A program made the position numbers and the translations under genes. A DNA stretch of 64,000 bases from Pseudomonadales bacterium (lineage in GTDB: Bacteria; Pseudomonadota; Gammaproteobacteria; Pseudomonadales; Azotimanducaceae). Below are positions 30,487 to 44,801 of the stretch, piece after piece (within the stretch, counting starts at the first letter, position 1; every line of letters begins with the position of its first letter). The notes below the pieces were generated by a model. That model ran no database searches. It saw only the letters and a program-made list of their open reading frames with translations, and was not told the origin of the DNA. The stretch covers positions 1 to 64,000 of the forward strand of contig JAFMIA010000009.1 of NCBI GenBank assembly GCA_017854255.1, in the 5' to 3' direction.

Positions 30487-31134
30487 ATGCTTGAGCACAT
30501 CACAATTGAACCGGAAACACCTGCTGATGCGAGCTTAATTTGGTTGCACGGCCTGGGCGCCGACGGGCACGACTTTGAACCCATTGTGCCTGAACTCGGC
30601 CTGTCTGATATTGCCATTCGCTACATCTTTCCGCATGCGCCAATTCGCCCAGTCTCCATTAACAATGGCGACGAGATGCGCGCTTGGTATGACTTTCAAT
30701 TTCATTCAGAGCGCGGCAGCTCGGATGATGTCCAAGCATCCGCCGATCAAATTCGACTGATTATCGATCAACAACTTGACGCTGGGATCCAAAGTCACCG
30801 GATCATCCTAGCGGGATTTTCACAAGGCGGCGTCATTGCCTTACACACAGCGCTCCGGCTTCAACACCGCCTGGCCGGCGTGATTGCGATCTCCACTTAC
30901 CTGCACGACCCCCAGGGCCTCGAGACTGAACGTCACGACGAAAACCTCGCGCTTCCGATTTTCATGGGGCATGGCCAGGGCGATCCAATGATACCGATCA
31001 TGAGAGCCGCCACCGCCAGAGAGAATCTGATCCGGTTGGGCTATGACGTCACCTGGCAGGACTACCCGATGGCACACCAAGTGTGCCTCGAGGAGATTGA
31101 AGACATCGCGATCTTTATTCGGCGGATACTGTGA
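30487..31134 (+). CDS. Carboxylesterase / phospholipase (alpha/beta hydrolase)
   Basis: A 215-residue alpha/beta hydrolase of the carboxylesterase/acyl-protein-thioesterase-like family. WLHGLGADGHDFEP (oxyanion region, about 19-32), nucleophile Ser in GFSQGGVIALH near residue 112, catalytic Asp in GHGQGDPMIP near 164 and His in YPMAHQVCLEE near 198. Length and motifs match the pseudomonad EstB type. Start ATG follows ACGAGGG. The stop overlaps the miaE GTG start by four bases. Confidence 0.93.
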   Translation: MLEHITIEPETPADASLIWLHGLGADGHDFEPIVPELGLSDIAIRYIFPHAPIRPVSINNGDEMRAWYDFQFHSERGSSDDVQASADQIRLIIDQQLDAGIQSHRIILAGFSQGGVIALHTALRLQHRLAGVIAISTYLHDPQGLETERHDENLALPIFMGHGQGDPMIPIMRAATARENLIRLGYDVTWQDYPMAHQVCLEEIEDIAIFIRRIL

Positions 31135-31700
31135 AATTAAAAGTTCAATCTTCCAAGGATTGGTTGCAATGCGTACTCGCAGATTTTGAAACCTTCCTGC
31201 AAGATCATGCTGCCAATGAACGTAAAGCCTCTTCTATGGCCATGTCGATGGTGACTCATTATCCAGACCGCACGCAATTGACTCGGGCAATGATCGACTT
31301 AGCGCTCGAAGAGTTAAACCACTTCAGGCAAGTCTATCGACTCATCGAGGCGCGAGGGTCCAACCTTACGGCCGACGTTAAAGACCACTACGTCAATGCT
31401 CTTAGGCAACACCTACGCAAGCCCAGCCATGAGTACTTTCTCGATCGGCTGCTCTCTGCTGCGGTGATAGAAGCCCGGGGGGCTGAGCGGTTCGAGATGA
31501 TCGGCAATGCGCTGGATGACACAAAACTTGCGAACTTCTACCAAACCCTTGCGCGCAGCGAATCTCAGCATCATCAGATGTTTCTAGATCTTGCCCTGAC
31601 CTACTTTGACCCAAGCGAGGTTGAGACGCGATTAGAATTCTGGTTAACCGAAGAAGCCGCGGTGCTTACCGCACTTCCGATTAGACCGCGCTTGCATTAG
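31131..31700 (+). CDS. miaE: tRNA-(ms2io6A37) hydroxylase MiaE
   Basis: Non-haem di-iron monooxygenase that hydroxylates the isopentenyl group of ms2i6A at tRNA position 37. The 189 residues show the ferritin-like four-helix pattern with metal ligands in DHAANERKAS, LEELNHFRQVYRL, VIEARGAERF and SESQHHQMFLDL. A GTG start overlaps the esterase stop. MiaE is confined largely to gammaproteobacteria and supports that placement. Confidence 0.93.
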   Translation: MKLKVQSSKDWLQCVLADFETFLQDHAANERKASSMAMSMVTHYPDRTQLTRAMIDLALEELNHFRQVYRLIEARGSNLTADVKDHYVNALRQHLRKPSHEYFLDRLLSAAVIEARGAERFEMIGNALDDTKLANFYQTLARSESQHHQMFLDLALTYFDPSEVETRLEFWLTEEAAVLTALPIRPRLH

Positions 31701-35197: not shown

Positions 35198-35285
35198 GCG
35201 CGCAAATTCCTAAAGCAATAAGATAAAACCTTATGAGATTACAGCAGCCCCAGCATGGCGTCGCCTTCAGTACAGCTTGTCGAGT

Positions 35286-36755
35286 ATGAGTATTTTTTCA
35301 AACCTATTCAAAACCAAGAAGTCGCCCGCTAAACCTGTCAAGCCATCAGCGTCCACCCTAAAAACCGCTCAGAAGAAGGCCACTCAGAAGAAGCCTGCCA
35401 CAAAGCAGCGCCCAGCACCCAAACCGGCAGCGACGCAACAGGCCGCCTTGCAACCTTCTCATCAGGCCGGCAAATCCCGCGCAAAACAACCGCCCGCGGA
35501 CCTACCCTTGCTAGGTCAAGATTTCATAGATCTTGATCTGCCTGAACCGTTGAACCTGGCTATCCGAAAGCTTAATTTCTCGAACTGCACACCGATCCAG
35601 AAAGAAGTTTTACCCCACAGCTTAGATGGCGAAGATGTGATCGCCCAGGCGCAAACGGGCACAGGCAAAACTGCGGCCTTTTTAATTTCTATTATCACCT
35701 ACCATTTAGAAAATCCTGAGCGGCAACCCCGCAAAGCCGGCACCCCCTTCGCGCTCATCATTGCACCGACCCGAGAGTTGGTCATGCAAATCGCATCGGA
35801 TGCCGAACTGCTGACAGCGTTCACTGATTTGCACGTGATGGCTGTGGTCGGCGGCATTGATTATGAAAAACAAAAACGAGAACTTGAAAGACCCGTTGAG
35901 GTCATTGTCGCAACCCCCGGTAGATTGCTTGATTTCTGCCGTTCTGGGGTCATCAATCTAGGCCAAGTCGAAACCCTCGTGATTGATGAGGCCGACAGAA
36001 TGTTGAATATGGGCTTCATCCCAGACGTGAAAGCCATCGTTCAGCGAACACCTAAGAAAGATAAGCGGCAAACTCAGCTATACAGCGCGACTTTTAGTGA
36101 GGATATCAAGCGACTAGCAAAAACTTGGACCCTAGACCCCGTCAAAATCGAAATTGCGCCCGAACAGGTTGCCGTTAGCAGTGTCGAACAATTGATTTAT
36201 TTCACGTCGGAATCAGAAAAATTCACAGTCTTGTGTAACCTCATTGCCCAACAAACCGAAAGTAAAGTGATCGTGTTTGTGAATCGCCGAGACGAAACCC
36301 GGCGACTTGAGGAAAAGCTCTATCGACAAGGGTTCAAAACAGGATTGCTCACCGGCGAAGTCGCGCAACGCAAGCGCATCAAGACGCTAGACGAGTTTAA
36401 GGATGGCGATATTCAAGTTATGGTGGCCACCGATGTTGCTGGGCGTGGCATTCACGTCGACAACATCAGCCACGTCGTCAATTATAATTTGCCAGAAGAC
36501 CCGGAAGATTACGTGCATCGGATTGGCCGAACCGGCCGCGCCGGCGCCAAAGGCATCTCGATCAGCTTGGTCTGTGAAAGCGATGCCTTCATGATGCCGA
36601 GCATCGAAGCGCTTCTTGGCGAGTCATTGAGCTTCACCTATCCGCCGGATGACCTCTTGATTCAACTTGGCTCGCCCGTTCGGGCGCGGCGGGTGAATAA
36701 CGATCTCATTCCGAAAGACAAAGATACCCGGAAACCACCCCGAAGAAGAGGCTAG
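35286..36755 (+). CDS. DEAD-box RNA helicase (RhlB-like)
   Basis: ATP-dependent RNA helicase, 489 residues. A Lys/Pro/Ala-rich, probably disordered arm of about 75 residues precedes the core: Q motif NCTPIQKEVLP, motif I AQTGTGKTAAF, Ia PTRELVMQI, motif II DEADRM, motif III SATF, motif V ATDVAGRGIH, motif VI HRIGRTGRAG. The long basic arm and short tail suggest an RhlB-like degradosome or ribosome-assembly helicase, but the exact role is open. A TTG three codons upstream is an alternative start. Ends two bases before the cupin gene. Confidence 0.93.
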   Translation: MSIFSNLFKTKKSPAKPVKPSASTLKTAQKKATQKKPATKQRPAPKPAATQQAALQPSHQAGKSRAKQPPADLPLLGQDFIDLDLPEPLNLAIRKLNFSNCTPIQKEVLPHSLDGEDVIAQAQTGTGKTAAFLISIITYHLENPERQPRKAGTPFALIIAPTRELVMQIASDAELLTAFTDLHVMAVVGGIDYEKQKRELERPVEVIVATPGRLLDFCRSGVINLGQVETLVIDEADRMLNMGFIPDVKAIVQRTPKKDKRQTQLYSATFSEDIKRLAKTWTLDPVKIEIAPEQVAVSSVEQLIYFTSESEKFTVLCNLIAQQTESKVIVFVNRRDETRRLEEKLYRQGFKTGLLTGEVAQRKRIKTLDEFKDGDIQVMVATDVAGRGIHVDNISHVVNYNLPEDPEDYVHRIGRTGRAGAKGISISLVCESDAFMMPSIEALLGESLSFTYPPDDLLIQLGSPVRARRVNNDLIPKDKDTRKPPRRRG

Positions 36756-36757
36756 CC

Positions 36758-37297
36758 ATGGCCCAACCAAAAGCGCGTCCGGTCGACGCCCTACTACGTC
36801 GATCGGATATCGACGCCTTAGAACCTGTCCGACACGTGCACCAGCATAATGCCAATGCCATCCGCCTCACACGGTCTTTATCAAACCTTACTGGCCTTGA
36901 GACCTTAGGCGTTCACCTCGTGACCTTGACCCAAGGGCATTTCTCAACGGAATATCACCGTCATCATGAAGATGAAGAATTCATCTATATTTTGTCTGGT
37001 TGCGGCCTTGCCCGAATTGGTGAGCATCAACATGACGTCGCGCCAGGGGATTTTATGGGCTTTAATACGCGCTCTGAAGCCCATAGTTTATACAATCCAA
37101 ACCCTGAAGATCTTATTTACCTTATGGGCGGCACTCGATGCGCCATCGATATTTGTGATTATCCTGACTTGGACCTCCGCCAGTTTAGAGTTCACGGTGA
37201 CCGAACAGCGGTTCAGCGTAAATACCTAACCGGCGCCAATCCGTTAACAGACCGAGCAGACCCCATTCCTGAATTTGAGCAAAAACCCAATGAATAA
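36758..37297 (+). CDS. Cupin-domain protein
   Basis: A 179-residue protein with one cupin barrel. Motif 1 is YHRHHEDEEFIYILSGCGL near residues 67-85 with His, His and Glu metal ligands, and motif 2 is GDFMGFNTRSEAHSLYNP near 96-113 with the distal His. A C-terminal 45-residue extension has no recognisable feature. Substrate is not known; the tight spacing with DUF2237 and the helicase suggests one transcript. Confidence 0.85.
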   Translation: MAQPKARPVDALLRRSDIDALEPVRHVHQHNANAIRLTRSLSNLTGLETLGVHLVTLTQGHFSTEYHRHHEDEEFIYILSGCGLARIGEHQHDVAPGDFMGFNTRSEAHSLYNPNPEDLIYLMGGTRCAIDICDYPDLDLRQFRVHGDRTAVQRKYLTGANPLTDRADPIPEFEQKPNE

Positions 37298-37679
37298 CCC
37301 CCTTGTCCTTGCGCCTTCTATTAACGTTCTCGGCAGTGAACTGTCACCTTGCAGCAATAAGCCATTAACCGGATTCCTTCGCGATGGCCTGTGTAATACC
37401 TGCGCGGAAGATGCAGGCTCACACACGGTTTGTGTCGAAATTAGCGAGGCGTTTTTATTGTTTTCGAAAGCAAGGGGCAACGACCTCATGACGCCCCATC
37501 CTGAATTTGGCTTTGATGGCCTCAAACCCGGCGACAGTTGGTGCTTGTGTGCGGGACGATGGCTCGAAGCCTATGAGGCGGGCATTGCCCCAAAAGTCAT
37601 TCTCACCAGTACGCACCAAGAAGCGCTTAAAATTGTGCCTCTGGAGCATCTCTTAGAGAACGCCGTCACCATTAATTGA
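37290..37679 (+). CDS. DUF2237-family protein
   Basis: A 129-residue protein matching the DUF2237 family: VLGSELSPCSNKPLTGF near the start, a conserved DGLCNTCAEDAGSHTVC with several Cys, GNDLMTPHPEFGFDGLKPGDSWCLC, and W-EA at the end. The family is widespread, cysteine-rich and of unknown function. The ATG at 37290 lies inside the cupin stop region (8-base overlap); a TTG 15 bases upstream is the alternative. Confidence 0.88.
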   Translation: MNNPLVLAPSINVLGSELSPCSNKPLTGFLRDGLCNTCAEDAGSHTVCVEISEAFLLFSKARGNDLMTPHPEFGFDGLKPGDSWCLCAGRWLEAYEAGIAPKVILTSTHQEALKIVPLEHLLENAVTIN

Positions 37680-37737
37680 GTGGGCATTGATAGGGCCCGA
37701 CTCAGACCCTCCAGCAAAGCTTAGGGAATCAAGATTC

Positions 37738-38418
37738 ATGACCCGACTCGAACACAAAAAGGTTTTAATCACCCAGTCTGACGATTACATGGGGCCAGCG
37801 ATTGCAGACTTGTTTGCCGCAGAAGCGGCACACGTCACGGCGCGCCCTGGATTGGTTCCGTTCGGTAACCAGTTCGCAAGGTATGTTCAGGATTTACCAG
37901 ACTTCGATGTTGTCATTGCCAACCTCGCCCATGATCCCTGTAACGGTCCCATTGAAACCTTAGCGGATGAAAGCTGGGAGAAGCTGTTTGACACGATGGT
38001 GCATCCACTGATGGCCTTGGTGAGACACTTTGCCCCACGAATGGCCGATCAAGGTCACGGAAAAATTATTGCGATCACCAGCGCCGCACCCTTAAAAGGT
38101 TTGCCGGGATCCGCCGCCTATTGCGCGGCTCGGGGTGCTCAAAATGCGTTTATCAAAGCCGTCGGTCTCGAATTTGCGGCCAAGAACGTACAGATCAATG
38201 CCATTGCCCAAAACTATGTGAGCAACCCCGTTTACTACCCGGATGAACTGGTTCAGAGTGAGCGGTTTCAAAAGCACCTCGCGCGCAACGTTCCGATTCG
38301 GCGGGTTGCTCGGCCTGAGGAACAAGCAGAATTCGCACTCTTTCTGGCCTCAAACAACAGTGATTTCTTTGTAGGCCAAATCTTTCCATTCTCGGGAGGG
38401 TGGGCCATTAACGCCTAA
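37738..38418 (+). CDS. Halohydrin-dehalogenase-like SDR protein
   Basis: A 226-residue SDR-fold protein that has lost the dinucleotide-binding glycine pattern. Instead it carries both motifs used to define halohydrin dehalogenases: T-X4-F/Y-X-G at residues 12-19 (TQSDDYMG) in the anion-binding loop, and S-X12-Y-X3-R at Ser115, Tyr128 and Arg132, where ordinary SDRs have Lys. The segment IAQNYVSNPVYYPDE (157-170) also resembles HheC closely. These enzymes close vicinal halohydrins to epoxides and release halide, and can open epoxides with azide, cyanide or nitrite. In operon with cupin, DUF2237 and an acetyltransferase. Activity is inferred. Confidence 0.8.
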   Translation: MTRLEHKKVLITQSDDYMGPAIADLFAAEAAHVTARPGLVPFGNQFARYVQDLPDFDVVIANLAHDPCNGPIETLADESWEKLFDTMVHPLMALVRHFAPRMADQGHGKIIAITSAAPLKGLPGSAAYCAARGAQNAFIKAVGLEFAAKNVQINAIAQNYVSNPVYYPDELVQSERFQKHLARNVPIRRVARPEEQAEFALFLASNNSDFFVGQIFPFSGGWAINA

Positions 38419-38423
38419 GTACG

Positions 38424-38972
38424 ATGCATTGGGAACTAAAGGACATCACCGTTTGGCACCTAGAGCGATTAACGCCCTTGCCAGCACCCCCGCCGCCTCA
38501 CGCCTACGAGCTTGTGAACCTTGTCGACCCAGATCCCGGTTTTTGTCGATACCTCTATGCAACGGTGGGTGCGCCTTGGCTTTGGTATGAAAAAATCGGT
38601 TGGTCCTTGTCTGAGTGGCAGCATCACGTTAACCAACCCAACGTTGCGTTTTGGGTTGCTTATGTTTCGGGCAATCCGATCGGTTATTTTGAGATCAAGC
38701 ACGGCCATGACAGCGCCTCTGAAATTTGTTTGTTTGGGCTTATGCCTAATTGGGTTGGCAGGGGCCTCGGCAGCGATCTGCTACAAGATGCAATTCATCA
38801 AGCGTTTAAGCCCAGTCAGCGCCGCGTTTGGCTCCATACCTGTTCACTCGACCATCCCAATGCACTTCCAAACTATACAAAACATGGCTTTAATCTTTTT
38901 AAAGAAGAACGCTTCATGGCCAAGGTCCCAGCTGAACCGTTAGAACCCTTTCCCGGGGCCTATTCACCATAA
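38424..38972 (+). CDS. GNAT-family N-acetyltransferase
   Basis: A 182-residue acetyltransferase of the GNAT fold. The acetyl-CoA pyrophosphate loop is in NWVGRGLGSDLLQDAI near residue 108-123, preceded by the beta strand SEICLFGLMP. HTCSLDHPNALPNYTKHGF near 137-155 is the typical last part. Acceptor unknown. Starts six bases after the dehalogenase-like gene and ends about two bases from the terminator it faces. Confidence 0.88.
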   Translation: MHWELKDITVWHLERLTPLPAPPPPHAYELVNLVDPDPGFCRYLYATVGAPWLWYEKIGWSLSEWQHHVNQPNVAFWVAYVSGNPIGYFEIKHGHDSASEICLFGLMPNWVGRGLGSDLLQDAIHQAFKPSQRRVWLHTCSLDHPNALPNYTKHGFNLFKEERFMAKVPAEPLEPFPGAYSP

Positions 38973-39074: not shown

Positions 39075-40316
39075 TTAACGAGTGAATTCGGGGTAAGCTT
39101 CGATGCCAATCTCCGAGATGTCAGAGCCTGCAATCTCTTCTTCTTCAGAAATTCTAAGTCCCATTACCAACTTAATAACCATCCAAGCGATGCCGCCGAC
39201 CACAAAGGTCCAGAGGAAGATTGCGCTAATACCCATCAACTGCGCCGAAAGCGTGGCATCCGAATTTGTGAAACACACTGCCAGCAAGCCCCATATTCCG
39301 CAGGTACCGTGAACCGAAATCGCGCCGACCGGATCATCGATTCGAAGCTTGTCGAGCAAAACGATCGAGCCGACCACTAAGATCCCGCCCGCCAGGCCAA
39401 TGAGTGCTGCTTCGCCAGGCATCGGCGTCAAAGGTTCGGCTGTAATCGAAACCAATCCGGCCAAAGCACCATTTAGCGCCATGGTAAGATCCGCTTTGCC
39501 AAATAGCACTTTAGCCGTTAGAAGCGCGCCAATCAGGCCAGCCGCAGCCGCGGTATTGGTGTTGACGAAGATCAGTGCAACCGCATTGGCTTCCTCAATA
39601 TTGCTGATGACTAATTCTGAGCCACCATTGAACCCAAACCAACCAAACCAGAGTATGAACATGCCCAGCGTTGCGAGCGGCATGTTTGCGCCTGGCAGGG
39701 GATTCACTTGTCCATTGGGACCGTACTTGCCTTTTCTTGCGCCGAGCAAGATAACGCCAGCGAGTGCCGCGGCAGCGCCACACATATGCACCACGCCAGA
39801 ACCTGCGAAATCTAGAAAGCCTGCTTCATCTAAAGCACCGCCGCCCCATTTCCAGAAACCTTGCACCGGATAAATAAAACCAGTCATCACAACTGCGAAA
39901 GCCAGGAACGCGAATAGCTTCATTCGCTCTGCAACCGCGCCTGAGATGATCGACATCGCGGTGGCGACAAACACAACCTGGAAAAAGAAGTCTGATGCCC
40001 CGGAGTAGTAGATATCGCCATCGGACGCTAAAACCTCACTCACTGAGTTATCACCACCACCCAGGTAGGTGCCGATCCCTGGAATCCATCCGGAACCGTC
40101 GCTATACATAATGCTATAGCCCACAATCAGATACATCAGGGACGCGATCGCAAACAACGCCACATTCTTGGTTAAAATTTCACTGGTATTTTTAGCTCGA
40201 ACCATTCCGGCTTCGAGCATGGCGAATCCGGGCGCCATAAACATGACCAATGCCCCCATCACTAAAAAGTAGAGCGTATCTACCGAATAACTAAGTTGTA
40301 TTAATGACTCTTCCAC
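39075..40316 (-). CDS. amt: Ammonium transporter Amt
   Basis: Inner membrane ammonium channel, 413 residues, with eleven expected membrane helices. Signatures include YFLVMGALVMFMAPGFAMLEAGMVRAKN-type opening helix (about 15-43), the conserved DFAGSGVVHMCGAAAALAG with the pore His near residue 171-189, and SVHGTCGIWGLLAV near 328-341 with the second His. GTG start at 40316 has GAGG seven bases upstream. No glnK gene is adjacent, unlike most gammaproteobacteria. A sigma-54 promoter lies upstream, so it should respond to nitrogen limitation through NtrC. Confidence 0.96.
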   Translation of the reverse strand: MEESLIQLSYSVDTLYFLVMGALVMFMAPGFAMLEAGMVRAKNTSEILTKNVALFAIASLMYLIVGYSIMYSDGSGWIPGIGTYLGGGDNSVSEVLASDGDIYYSGASDFFFQVVFVATAMSIISGAVAERMKLFAFLAFAVVMTGFIYPVQGFWKWGGGALDEAGFLDFAGSGVVHMCGAAAALAGVILLGARKGKYGPNGQVNPLPGANMPLATLGMFILWFGWFGFNGGSELVISNIEEANAVALIFVNTNTAAAAGLIGALLTAKVLFGKADLTMALNGALAGLVSITAEPLTPMPGEAALIGLAGGILVVGSIVLLDKLRIDDPVGAISVHGTCGIWGLLAVCFTNSDATLSAQLMGISAIFLWTFVVGGIAWMVIKLVMGLRISEEEEIAGSDISEIGIEAYPEFTR

Positions 40317-40431
40317 AATTTTCCTCCTCGGATAACGTCGTGACGCTTTTCGCTCCTGAATATGTGCTGACCTAACTCCTGCGAGCTTAGTCGGCTCATT
40401 CCCTGGACTGGTTTTGTCCTACCTCAGTAAA

Positions 40432-40447
40432 AGCAAAGATGGTGCCA
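40432..40447 (-). promoter_or_regulatory. Sigma-54 (RpoN) promoter for amt
   Basis: On the minus strand TGGCAC-CATCT-TTGCT matches the sigma-54 consensus TGGCAC-N5-TTGCW at every position (-24 box 40447-40442, -12 box 40436-40432). Transcription would start near 40420, leaving a leader of about 105 bases. I did not find a convincing NtrC palindrome upstream. Confidence 0.85.
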
Positions 40448-40803
40448 AGATCAAAATCCCGACAAAAATAGGCATCAGGGTTCAATTCATAGGGTTAGGG
40501 GTTCCGTGCGGGTCGGATCAGCTTTTGATACTGCGGAATTCATGCACGAAGCTGGGGCGGTTGCCCTTAATTGGGGCGAGGCCGCGGCATGGCGCCGAGG
40601 GCCGCGCCTTCTAGTTTGCTCGCGCCTTATGCCGCGAGACATTCGCCAGGTGTCCGTGTGGACTTTGCCCCTGATTCTAAATCGGATCCGACCGGAACTG
40701 TTGAGTCTGTTAGCCGATGCCCGCTTTCGGCAGGGCGCGGGGGCGCGCTGCCCCCCTCAATGCCTGGGTGCATCCGGGCAACCGCAAAGGCGCCTCAACC
40801 GAT
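40448..40803. other. Intergenic stretch between amt promoter and dctM
   Basis: About 355 bases, GC-rich in its middle, with no gene I can support. Several plus-strand frames of 66-116 codons are open, but they lack ribosome binding sites and show Arg/Pro/Ala-rich composition typical of chance frames in GC-rich DNA. This stretch should hold enhancer sites for the sigma-54 promoter. Confidence 0.45.
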
Positions 40804-42153
40804 CTATTGCAGACGACTGGGAAGGTACAGCACCAAATCGGAAAAACAATAAATGAGCACCAACCCAAGAAGTTGTAGCGCAATAAACGGGACGACACCG
40901 CGATAAATGACAGGCACCGTCACCGCATCTGGCACCACCCCTTTGAGATAAAAAATCGCAAAACCAACGGGCGGTGTCAGGAATGCGGTTTGCAAGCAGA
41001 CCGCAAACAAAACGGTAAACCAAATCAAATCAAACCCGAGCCCCGTCACCACCGGGGCAACCAGTGGCAGCACAATCAAGGTGATCTCAATCCAATCCAG
41101 GACAAATCCCAATAAAAAAACCACCAGCAAGATGGTGATCAATATCCCATCCGGCCCAAAGGGCAAACCCAAAAGGCCTTTCTCGATCAAATGATCACCC
41201 CCAAGCCCGCGCAGCACCAACGAAAATGCTGTGGCCCCCAAGAATATTGCAAAGATATAACTGGTTGTTTTGGTGGTTTCAAGCAAGGCCTGCCTCAAGA
41301 CCTGGGGCGTCAAATTGGCATACCACGCCGTTAAGATCAGAGCGCCGGCGGCACCAACACCTGCCGCTTCGGTCGGCGTTGCGATCCCAGTAAAGATGGA
41401 TCCCAACACCGCAAAAATAAGCATCAGGGGCGGCAACATGGCCTGAACAACCGCCATTAACACGCCAAGGGTTAAGGGCTCGGGATTTAGAACCCTCGGC
41501 GCAAGCTTTGGTTTCAAAATCGCAACCATCACGATGTAGACCGCGTACAAACCAGCCAACATCAACCCCGGGATCAGCGCGCCCAAAAACAACGGTCCGA
41601 CAGGCAACGCCAAGCGATCCGCCATCATAACCAGCATGATTGAAGGCGGCACCAATATGCCTAAAGACCCGACCGCCGCTATGGTACCAGCCGCTAATTC
41701 AGCCTGATAACCGCGCGCCAGCATCGGCGGCATCGCCAAGAGCCCCAGCAGCACGACAGAAGCACCGATGATGCCCGTCGATGCCGATAACAAGACGCCA
41801 ATTCCAACAACTGACAATGCCATGCCCCCGGGAACCGCATTTAATAACGTTGATAGATTTCGTAACAATCGCTCCGCCAATCCAGACTTTTCAAGCATCA
41901 CCCCCATAAAAATAAACATCGGTAACGCCACCAAGACCCAGTTGTTCATCACGTCCCAAATGCGATCCACCACAAGCCCTGAATAATCCCAGCTGATTGC
42001 GATATCCCAACCAAAATCAATGCCGGCGATCATCCCCACAGCGGTAAAGATCACGGCGAGTCCCCCAAGGACCCAGGCCACAGGAAAACCAGAAAAAATT
42101 AAGAGGATAAAACTGACGAACATCCACAGACTGAGCCAATCGCCATCGGTCAT
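40804..42153 (-). CDS. TRAP transporter large permease DctM
   Basis: Membrane subunit of a tripartite ATP-independent periplasmic transporter, 449 residues, with about twelve to thirteen membrane helices. Start at 42153 overlaps the dctQ stop in ATGA; longer upstream frame is not used. Family segments: FVLVALPMFIFMGVMLEKSG near 75, ASTGIIGASVVLLGLLAMP near 115, LGILVPPSIMLVMMAD near 160, and GVGAAGALILT near 285. Works with the small permease and binding protein encoded upstream. Confidence 0.93.
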   Translation of the reverse strand: MTDGDWLSLWMFVSFILLIFSGFPVAWVLGGLAVIFTAVGMIAGIDFGWDIAISWDYSGLVVDRIWDVMNNWVLVALPMFIFMGVMLEKSGLAERLLRNLSTLLNAVPGGMALSVVGIGVLLSASTGIIGASVVLLGLLAMPPMLARGYQAELAAGTIAAVGSLGILVPPSIMLVMMADRLALPVGPLFLGALIPGLMLAGLYAVYIVMVAILKPKLAPRVLNPEPLTLGVLMAVVQAMLPPLMLIFAVLGSIFTGIATPTEAAGVGAAGALILTAWYANLTPQVLRQALLETTKTTSYIFAIFLGATAFSLVLRGLGGDHLIEKGLLGLPFGPDGILITILLVVFLLGFVLDWIEITLIVLPLVAPVVTGLGFDLIWFTVLFAVCLQTAFLTPPVGFAIFYLKGVVPDAVTVPVIYRGVVPFIALQLLGLVLIYCFSDLVLYLPSRLQ

Positions 42154-42689
42154 TGCGCAGCCCTCGGCTTTGGCCAGCCGAACAACAGGCACAACACCCG
42201 AGACAGACGGGACAGCGTTGCCAGCAACAGTAAAACAAACCCGATTGGAAGCATCGCTTTAATCACCCAACGAAAAGGCAAACCGCCCGGCGCCTGCGAG
42301 ACTTCCGACGTTTCAAACGCGTACAGCACGAACGGGCCAGCCGCGATCAGGACCAACATCACAAAGGGTAAAAGCAGCAGCAATAGCCCGTAGCCTTCGA
42401 CCCAAGCTCGGGTCTGCTCGGACCATCTGGACCGAAAGACATCCACTCGAACATGGGCATCTTGTACTAAGGCGTAGGATAGCCCTAGAAGAAAGCCGGT
42501 GGCATACAAGTGCCATTGCAATTCTTCCAGTTCAATAAAGCCTTCAGAGAAGAGGTAGCGAGAAATAACGTTCACAACAATGACACCGATCAGCAGTAGC
42601 CAAATCCATCCTAACGCTGAGCCGAGCTTGATCACCACGCCATCAATCAATTGAGATAGGCTCGTCACCGGCAACAACTGATCGCTCAT
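42150..42689 (-). CDS. TRAP transporter small permease DctQ
   Basis: Small membrane subunit, 179 residues with four predicted helices (about 24-46, 62-80, 96-118, 138-160). The conserved motif region RYLFSEGFIELEELQWHLY near residue 45-62 and the HVRVDVFRSRW turn near 78-90 are typical. Overlaps dctM and dctP by four bases each, so the three subunits are coupled in the order P-Q-M. Confidence 0.92.
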   Translation of the reverse strand: MSDQLLPVTSLSQLIDGVVIKLGSALGWIWLLLIGVIVVNVISRYLFSEGFIELEELQWHLYATGFLLGLSYALVQDAHVRVDVFRSRWSEQTRAWVEGYGLLLLLLPFVMLVLIAAGPFVLYAFETSEVSQAPGGLPFRWVIKAMLPIGFVLLLLATLSRLSRVLCLLFGWPKPRAAQ

Positions 42690-43810
42690 TCCTCGGCCAT
42701 CTCATCAAAATCCCGAGGCAAGTACGCTAAGGCTTTCCACTTCTTATAGCTGCGCATAAATTTTCTTTGGGATGCCAAAATCTCCGCGAATTGCGGATCT
42801 TTCTCAGCTTCAACCTGAAGCACGGACTCAGTGACGGCCTGAAGCGACTTTAAAACCGTTCGATCAAACCGAATGGGGGTCACGCCTTTTGCCTCGAAGC
42901 TTTCGATCACAGCGCCTTGCAAGGCCTCACCCTTCGCCAGGTTTCGAATGACGCCGGCCGTACAAGCCATCTCGATGAGGCTCTGATCACCCGTACTGAG
43001 CGCATCCCAACGGGCTTGATTGACCACGAGATGCGCCGCGGTAAAGGTTTGATGCCAGCCCGGAAAGTAATTGAACTTCGCAACTTGATCGAACCCCAGC
43101 ATCGCATCCACAACGGGTAAGGAGTACTCGGTCGCATCGATCGCCCCTTTTTCAAGCGCTTGATAGATTTCCCCGCCGGGTATTAAGGTCACGGACGCAC
43201 CCAGTGCTTGCAAAACGCGCCCACCGAGCCCGGCGAATCGTATTTTCAGACCTTCAAATTGGGTGAGGTCGGTAATGGGAAATCGAAACCAGCCGGCGGT
43301 TTCTGGGCCAATGATGCCGCACAGAATTGGATGAATATTGTGGGGCGCATAGAGCGCTTCGGCCAAGGCCTTACCCCCTGCCTCGTAATACCAAGCGGTG
43401 TATTCCCAAGGTTCAAGTCCGAAGGGTACGGCTGATATGAGCGGCGTCGCGGGGATCCTGCCCTGATCATAGCCAAGCCAGGTGTAACCCGCTTCTAACT
43501 TCCCCGCCTTCACGCTCTCAGTGATACTAAAGGCTGGGACCAGCATGCCCGGCTCATAGATATCCAACAGTACCCGCCCGCCTGAGGCCCGACTCAGTTG
43601 CTCTGAAACATATAGGATATTGTCGCCCAATGCGGGCAAGTGGGTGCCGAACGCCACCGGCGTGCGCCACTTAATCTGCGGGGCCTCTGAGGCGGTGATG
43701 GTGTTCTGTAAGGGCCCTGTTGAGCGAAGACTCAGGGCGCCGACAAGACCCACCAGAAATGCCACAACAATGGCAATCAGCGCGGTTTGATTTGTCCAAG
43801 GATTCTTAAT
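42686..43810 (-). CDS. TRAP transporter substrate-binding protein DctP
   Basis: Periplasmic solute receptor. The DctP domain starts near WRTPVAFGTHLPALG; the ligand-binding region has LKIRFAGLGGRVLQALGA (Arg contacting a carboxylate) and PGGEIYQALEKGAIDATE, then PGWHQTFTAAH. These resemble the receptors of the alpha-keto-acid (TakP) type. The first GTG (43765) would cut the signal segment, whereas an ATT codon at 43810 gives a complete signal anchor (MKNPWTNQTALIAIVVAFLV) and has GGGG seven bases upstream, so I propose a rare ATT start (374 residues). Ligand unknown; organic acid likely. Confidence 0.85.
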   Translation of the reverse strand: MKNPWTNQTALIAIVVAFLVGLVGALSLRSTGPLQNTITASEAPQIKWRTPVAFGTHLPALGDNILYVSEQLSRASGGRVLLDIYEPGMLVPAFSITESVKAGKLEAGYTWLGYDQGRIPATPLISAVPFGLEPWEYTAWYYEAGGKALAEALYAPHNIHPILCGIIGPETAGWFRFPITDLTQFEGLKIRFAGLGGRVLQALGASVTLIPGGEIYQALEKGAIDATEYSLPVVDAMLGFDQVAKFNYFPGWHQTFTAAHLVVNQARWDALSTGDQSLIEMACTAGVIRNLAKGEALQGAVIESFEAKGVTPIRFDRTVLKSLQAVTESVLQVEAEKDPQFAEILASQRKFMRSYKKWKALAYLPRDFDEMAEE

Positions 43811-43860
43811 CGCGTTGCCCCTTTTTGCCCATAAGAATGCTCTATACTAACGCAACGCGA
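43810..43860. promoter_or_regulatory. Inverted repeat spanning both divergent starts
   Basis: TCGCGTTGC at 43810-43818 is the exact inverse of GCAACGCGA at 43852-43860, with 33 bases between. Each arm abuts a start: GCAACGCG-ATT for dctP (minus) and GCAACGCG-ATG for the hydrolase (plus). A TATACT box at 43843-43848 would place the plus transcript start within a few bases of the ATG. An operator for a shared regulator is likely. Confidence 0.5.
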
Positions 43861-44801
43861 TGACGCTGCCATCTATGACACCAGAACAATTTACACAGGC
43901 ACTCAGCCATCCACCCGAAGCGTATTCGGTGATGGTCAAGGACGTTCGAATTCAGTATCGGCGCTGGCCAAAGCCCCATGCGCCTGGCGTCTTACTGGTT
44001 CATGGTCACGCCGCGCACGCTCGCTGGTGGGACCATATTGGCCCATCATTGCATCATCAATTCGATGTCTCCGCGATTGACCTGTCTGGCGCTGGCGATA
44101 GCGCGCACAGAACAACCTACTCATCTCGCTTATTTGCCGAAGAAATGATGGCCGTCACACACCATGCAGGTTATGCGTCGCCGATCATCATCGCCCACAG
44201 TTTTGGCGGCACCCTTGCTCGGGTTGCCTGTTATCTAAACCCCCATTGGGCACAACAGCTGATCTTGATGGATTCGGTGATCCCGTCCAGGCAGCCCGCC
44301 GGGCCGCGCAACTCGAAAGAGGTCAAAGGGCCGACAAAACCAACGCGGCAAACCCAGCGCCCAGAACGGGTGTATCCAACACGGCTCATTGCGATGAAAC
44401 GCTTTAGACTAACGCCTCGACAGCCTTTGACGCACCCTCATATTCTCACCCACATCGCCCACCATTCTTTTCGGGAATCTGAGGCGGGTTTTGTATTCAA
44501 ATTTGATCGCGGAGTCTTTAACAAGATGATGCCGGCGTCAGACTTACCCACCGGATCCGAGATGATGGCGAGTCTGCAAACCAAAACCAGCTTGGTGATC
44601 GGCCGCAAGAGTGTGTTTTTTGACCCCGAAACCCCGGTTGGGGAGCGCAATTTATCGACCGCAACAAAACAGCTTGCAAACCATGACGTCAAGATCATCG
44701 ACGACGCCGGTCATCACTTAATGATCGATCAGCCCTTGTCTACGATCGAGACGCTTTTAACGCTTACCGCTGGCTCGGCCGAAGGCCCTGATCAACGGTA
44801 A
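43860..44801 (+). CDS. Alpha/beta hydrolase
   Basis: A 313-residue alpha/beta-fold hydrolase: oxyanion LLVHGHAAHARWWDHIG near residue 45-61, nucleophile Ser in IIAHSFGGTLAR near 118-129, cap region rich in Arg/Pro about 145-215, and the catalytic His in DDAGHHLMIDQP near 284-295. Because the nucleophile is Ser it is an esterase or C-C hydrolase rather than an epoxide hydrolase. Divergent from the TRAP operon. The stop region overlaps the convergent tauD-like gene by 38 bases. A second ATG at 43875 is an alternative start. Confidence 0.85.
   Translation: MTLPSMTPEQFTQALSHPPEAYSVMVKDVRIQYRRWPKPHAPGVLLVHGHAAHARWWDHIGPSLHHQFDVSAIDLSGAGDSAHRTTYSSRLFAEEMMAVTHHAGYASPIIIAHSFGGTLARVACYLNPHWAQQLILMDSVIPSRQPAGPRNSKEVKGPTKPTRQTQRPERVYPTRLIAMKRFRLTPRQPLTHPHILTHIAHHSFRESEAGFVFKFDRGVFNKMMPASDLPTGSEMMASLQTKTSLVIGRKSVFFDPETPVGERNLSTATKQLANHDVKIIDDAGHHLMIDQPLSTIETLLTLTAGSAEGPDQR

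Follow-up and report, generated by a model that had tools for sequence, protein, structure and literature searches.

The locus studied here raises the question of what a protein with the short-chain dehydrogenase/reductase (SDR) fold does when the dinucleotide-binding loop of that family is missing. It lies in a 64,000-nucleotide stretch of DNA (the window) from a Pseudomonadales bacterium of the Azotimanducaceae, and an initial annotation, made from the sequence, proposed that it specifies a halohydrin dehalogenase (HHDH). We find this proposal well supported, and the gene very probably encodes a cofactor-free HHDH (Table 1). This reading is based on motifs (including the missing glycine loop and catalytic Lys), fold match (to structures of HheB and HheD enzymes), phylogeny, purifying selection, wide conservation, and linkage to epoxide hydrolase genes in relatives, the last of these being independent support. 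Counted against it were the 38–41% identity to characterised enzymes, the lack of an EHN-family epoxide hydrolase gene nearby in the genus, the nature of the neighbouring genes, the loss of a motif glycine in one relative (L044), and SDR structures that match at Z of about 26.

Table 1. Features of the HHDH locus, in window positions. Neighbour counts refer to 32 clade rows (65–100% identity), of which at least three are the same contig drawn from a different collection, and some of whose contigs end early.
Feature	Positions	Strand	Remarks
DEAD-box-helicase-like gene	35277..36755	+	DEAD motif read from sequence; upstream, co-directional; kept in most of the clade
Cupin_2 protein	36758..37297	+	co-directional neighbour
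DUF2237 protein	37275..37679	+	directly upstream of HHDH gene; in 20/32 clade rows
Halohydrin-dehalogenase-type SDR-fold gene	37738..38418	+	226 aa; ORF, PDB sequence matches, trees, structural match
Motif 1, T12-QSDD-Y17-M-G19 (TQSDDYMG, residues 12–19)	37771..37794	+	nucleophile (halide) pocket by motif definition; replaces SDR TGxxxGxG loop
Motif 2, catalytic triad S115-X12-Y128-X3-R132	38080..38133	+	sequence; common to 74/74 relatives
NYVSNPVYYPDE, residues 159–170	38212..38247	+	loop aligned with HHDH halide-site loop
GNAT acetyltransferase	38424..38972	+	5 bp downstream of HHDH gene; in 24/32 clade rows

The reading frame opens with an ATG at 37738, with AGGGA about 10 nt upstream, and reaches its stop at 38418 with no internal stops. 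An alternative in-frame start, TTG, lies 51 bp upstream at 37687, but the ATG is favoured because relatives begin at ATG. Purifying selection acts on the gene, with a dN/dS of 0.05–0.09 against four close relatives; dS was saturated for four more distant relatives in the same comparison.

Two motifs, T-X4-F/Y-X-G and S-X12-Y-X3-R, have been used to mine HHDHs from databases, as the initial annotation held and as PMC4989007 and PMC11976700 state; the SDR counterparts, given in PMC11976700, are T-G/A-X3-G/A-X-G and S-X10-14-Y-X3-K. Both HHDH motifs occur in the window protein at the residues originally assigned to them. The TGxxxGxG dinucleotide loop of classical NAD(P)-dependent SDRs is absent from it, TQSDDYMG standing instead, as is their catalytic Y-X3-K, replaced by Y128-X3-R132. 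We surveyed 100 distinct relatives, 74 at 43–100% identity and 26 more distant SDRs at 23–34%. The sequence S-X12-Y-X3-R is found in 74/74 of the former and 0/26 of the latter, S-X10-14-Y-X3-K in 0/74 and 26/26, and motif 1 near the N-terminus in 68/74 and 0/26. The clean split between Arg and Lys proteins is in line with the statement of the initial annotation that Arg in place of Lys sets HHDHs apart from dehydrogenases, and indicates that the motif set of the window protein is not due to chance.

Motif 1 as defined was not found in six of the 74 relatives. Three carry Ser for Thr (L061, L062, L065) and one Asp for Gly (L044), while L083 and L125 were counted as misses since the ORF used began too far upstream; the deposited start of L083 also gives Ser for Thr. 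L061, L062, L065 and L083 are natural Ser-for-Thr variants that keep the S-Y-R triad. L044 (L044:2665-3336), a member of the window clade at 66% identity, has TQDNDFMD as motif 1 and no GNAT neighbour. Mutagenesis of HheC and HheG, as described in PMC11976700, found the motif-1 Gly nearly invariable and the Thr tolerant of similar residues only; L044 is thus unusual among natural sequences, and the Ser variants are to be expected.

Pfam adh_short_C2 exceeds its cut-off, with a match starting only at residue 46, so the nucleotide-loop part of the protein is unlike that of SDRs. A full-length Pfam adh_short match is missing. Of the 25 NCBIfam SDR models shown, not one is matched above its threshold, the highest score being 113.6 against a required 312 bits. 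The segment NYVSNPVYYPDE is present and aligns with a loop which we take, from work on HheC, to form the halide site. It was at first likened to that of HheC, but is closer to NFVDNPTYFPEE of HheD2 and NFFNNPTYFPTS of HheA2 than to NYLHSEDSPYFYPTE of HheC, which is three residues longer.

The best PDB sequence matches of the window protein are 7b73, 8xxb, 5b12 and 4zd6 (E 2.4e-51 to 3.5e-42), entitled HheD2, HheD8 triple mutant and, for the last two, HheB; the next match has an E of 5.1e-25. The G-type HHDH structure 8h8y, outside the tree sample, matches residues 88–223 only (E 3.4e-16). Compared over the whole chain, an AlphaFold model (36-sequence alignment, mean pLDDT 86.9, pTM 0.87) has as its four top matches two HheB entries, HheD2 and HheD8 (Z 28.4–29.4, 1.8–2.1 Å, 220–221 residues). 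The remaining matches run from Z 26.8 downward, with many SDR structures at Z 25–26, a modest margin that reflects a fold common to both groups. Next after the HHDHs in the structural ranking is the T. thermophilus oxidoreductase 4yqz, and SDRs of Thermus thermophilus plasmids (plasmid hits H2-H15) are 33% identical to the window protein over the full length.

How close is the window protein to the known types? HheD2 (7b73) and HheD8 (8xxb), both type D, resemble it in both HHDH motifs, length class and fold (Z 29.1 and 28.4, respectively), and the halide loop of HheD2 resembles its own; yet they are 40% and 41% identical to it, as against 62% to each other. New type D members show 57–95% identity to verified D enzymes, according to a 2016 review (PMC4989007). 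HheB of Corynebacterium sp. N-1074 (4zd6) has the same two motifs and is the best structural match (Z 29.3–29.4 for two HheB entries), but is 38% identical and belongs to a different lineage in the tree. HheB and HheD2 are 48% identical, above the 38–41% that the window protein shows to HheB, HheD2 and HheD8. HheC and HheA2 share the motifs and fold class, but their identity is 28–29%, over the C-terminal two thirds, and they form a separate deep branch. Other work concerns the solution of the HheD2 structure (PMC5892878), the HheG loop (PMC11536340) and HHDHs in marine Pseudomonas (PMC6922532).

Phylogenetic analysis, proposed at the outset, places the protein outside the cofactor-binding SDRs. 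In a quick tree that had 16 SDRs for an outgroup, the HHDH sequences, including HheA2 and HheC as long branches, form a single branch (SH-aLRT 99). For a more careful tree, HheA2 and HheC were left out, some near-identical relatives were dropped and the SDRs were cut from 16 to four; here, the window protein, HheB, HheD2, HheD8 and 6a41 are split from these four SDRs (100/99). The window clade (13 rows) is supported at 100/100, and HheD2, HheD8, HheB and seven further rows lie on a different branch (100/99). Additional branches comprise a second large marine gamma-/betaproteobacterial clade (motif 1 TC...YMG) and a Chloroflexota pair, with a branching order that lacks resolution. Separate clades, together with identities of 40–41% and 38%, rule out membership in type D and type B, respectively, so that, judged by sequence, the window protein is neither. 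The window clade is a divergent clade of a known enzyme class, and may represent a new HHDH subtype, set apart from B and D in trees that covered types A to D. A possible origin of E-type HHDHs in marine gammaproteobacteria is a lead only.

The gene is widespread among relatives of the source organism. Within the genus, 12/15 genomes have an orthologue at 70% identity or more, and the three genomes that lack one are 62, 84 and 72% complete. Of 200 genomes sampled from the same family, 124 carry a homologue (E <= 1e-40), with one match each, representing 28/37 genera. Among named records, the closest are MAGs that bear the label Gammaproteobacteria or Pseudomonadales.

The helicase, cupin, DUF2237, HHDH and GNAT genes all point the same way, with overlaps of up to 23 bp and gaps of up to 58 bp, and for these reasons look like one transcription unit; a simple promoter scan was uninformative. 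The four neighbours give no pointer to halides or to a substrate. Farther downstream, in most of the genus, are genes for an ammonium transporter and for a TRAP transporter made up of three genes (DctM, DctQ, DctP; window 39075-43765, minus strand). A MiaE-like tRNA hydroxylase gene lies at window 31131-31700 (plus strand; above the Pfam cut-off, well below that of NCBIfam). Other settings are seen in more distant relatives. In the sister clade with motif 1 TC...YMG (L045-L047, L049, L050, L052, L054, L055, L061 and L068, with Ser for Thr in L061), a conserved cluster includes DsbA-like, CoA-transferase III, MaoC, acyl-CoA dehydrogenase and thiolase genes. In two Chloroflexota MAGs (L066:4160-5971, L048:4271-5971), the HHDH-like gene follows, on the same strand, 15–21 bp after the end of an acyl-CoA-dehydrogenase-like gene.

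A clue to function comes from epoxide hydrolase genes. We placed 191 EHN-domain epoxide hydrolases in the 124 homologue-bearing family genomes; 31 of these genomes have one within 10 kb of the HHDH homologue, and in every case the two share a strand. If the genes were uniformly placed in 3.6 Mb genomes, about 0.56 would be expected. Such Poisson figures ignore kinship, and 31 related genomes are not 31 events, so we put weight instead on genera and arrangements: the linked genomes fall in 6 of 28 genera and show different gene arrangements, which makes chance linkage unlikely. In three genera (g32, g37, g7; 12 genomes), the EHN gene lies 71–1829 bp downstream of the HHDH gene; in g22 (14 genomes), 7–10 kb downstream; and in g2 and g25 (5 genomes), 5.4–7.4 kb upstream. 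The last two belong to the window's own clade, and their EHN gene sits in an array whose other members match those of the window; none of the six is the window's own genus. Where tested, homologues of the four genera with a downstream epoxide hydrolase fall with HheB/HheD rather than with the window protein. The EHN assignment was confirmed by Pfam for L104. Linkage is also seen on plasmid pSA2 of Novosphingobium resinovorum, where a homologue 43% identical to the window protein (WP_069709941.1, annotated as SDR family oxidoreductase) starts 11 bp downstream of a gene annotated as an epoxide hydrolase. This homologue groups with HheB (99/95), has Ser in place of the motif-1 Thr, and is plasmid-borne among other catabolic-looking genes.

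No EHN gene was found near the HHDH gene in the window or in any of the 11 further genomes of the genus that have a homologue; in G014 the two are 145 kb apart. The source genome encodes one EHN epoxide hydrolase, on another contig, 60% identical to the adjacent enzyme of g32 and 43% to the array enzyme of g25. Two alpha/beta hydrolases of the window (30487-31134 and 43860-44801) were considered as epoxide hydrolases and rejected, their matches being to esterase/Abhydrolase models, not to EHN. Across the family sample, EHN is present in 118/124 HHDH-bearing genomes versus 57/76 others (Fisher p 4.6e-5), a comparison that is confounded by kinship and completeness and to which we give no weight. 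Overall, the linkage supports halohydrin to epoxide to diol as a natural pathway, and agrees with the scheme in PMC11976700. Literature searches, among them some on natural substrate or role, turned up none on this clade and none on the linkage among the papers listed; they were mostly without subscription papers and thus say little on what is in print overall.

We infer catalysis by the window protein, along with its substrate, direction and physiological role. By homology with HheC, HheB and HheD2, Tyr128, held by Arg132, would deprotonate the hydroxyl group of a vicinal halohydrin, and Ser115 would bind this hydroxyl and position the substrate. The resulting alkoxide would displace the vicinal halide by intramolecular substitution, giving an epoxide, and the halide would exit into a pocket formed by motif 1 (Thr12, Tyr17, Gly19) and the 159–170 loop, in the place of nicotinamide in SDRs. 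The reverse reaction, epoxide opening by an anion, is also expected. In the cell, the enzyme would most likely detoxify or use naturally formed halohydrins, an epoxide hydrolase then converting the epoxide to a diol.

It is also conceivable, if unlikely, that this cofactor-independent enzyme of the HHDH lineage has another natural reaction, for example epoxide opening by nitrite, cyanide or thiocyanate, or a lyase or isomerase step in acyl-CoA metabolism, with dehalogenation as a side activity. Chromosomal location and conservation across the family (124/200 genomes) would fit such a role, as would the acyl-CoA-related genes around the sister-clade homologues and those of L048 and L066. Against this, every motif residue of proven HHDHs is kept, the linkage to epoxide hydrolases is consistent with chemistry on halohydrins or epoxides, and no acyl-CoA gene is adjacent to the window gene.

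That the protein is an ordinary NAD(P)-dependent SDR merely resembling HHDHs seems highly improbable. The fold, the adh_short_C2 score and the many SDR structures at Z 25–26 are what one would expect of such an enzyme, but the glycine loop and catalytic Lys are absent, the Pfam match covers the chain from residue 46 only, the NCBIfam scores fall far short, and the trees put the protein outside the SDRs; we reject this reading on motifs and trees. Slightly less probable still is a non-catalytic or decaying HHDH relative. The motif-1 glycine lost in L044, and the 3/15 genus genomes with no orthologue-level match (all less than 85% complete), could be taken as signs of decay; the low dN/dS, the intact motif residues of the window protein and the intact triad in 74/74 relatives speak against it.

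A dehalogenase in this setting bears on a wider issue. The first HHDHs to be cloned were from bacteria that had been enriched on epihalohydrins or haloalcohols (PMC4989007), an origin that tells little about their natural role. What is added here beyond the known enzyme class is a divergent clade, its conservation throughout the lineage and a hint at natural function from gene neighbourhoods. The clade is on offer for biocatalysis. Our tentative suggestion, somewhat less likely than its opposite, is that an HHDH subtype distinct from B and D, near-core and chromosomal in a marine Pseudomonadales family, forms with an EHN epoxide hydrolase a native halohydrin to epoxide to diol route for naturally formed bromo- and chlorohydrins, rather than for the industrial pollutants of the first HHDH-strain enrichments. 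With a whole bacterial family that has chromosomal HHDH homologues, repeatedly co-directional with epoxide hydrolases, the natural role becomes testable.
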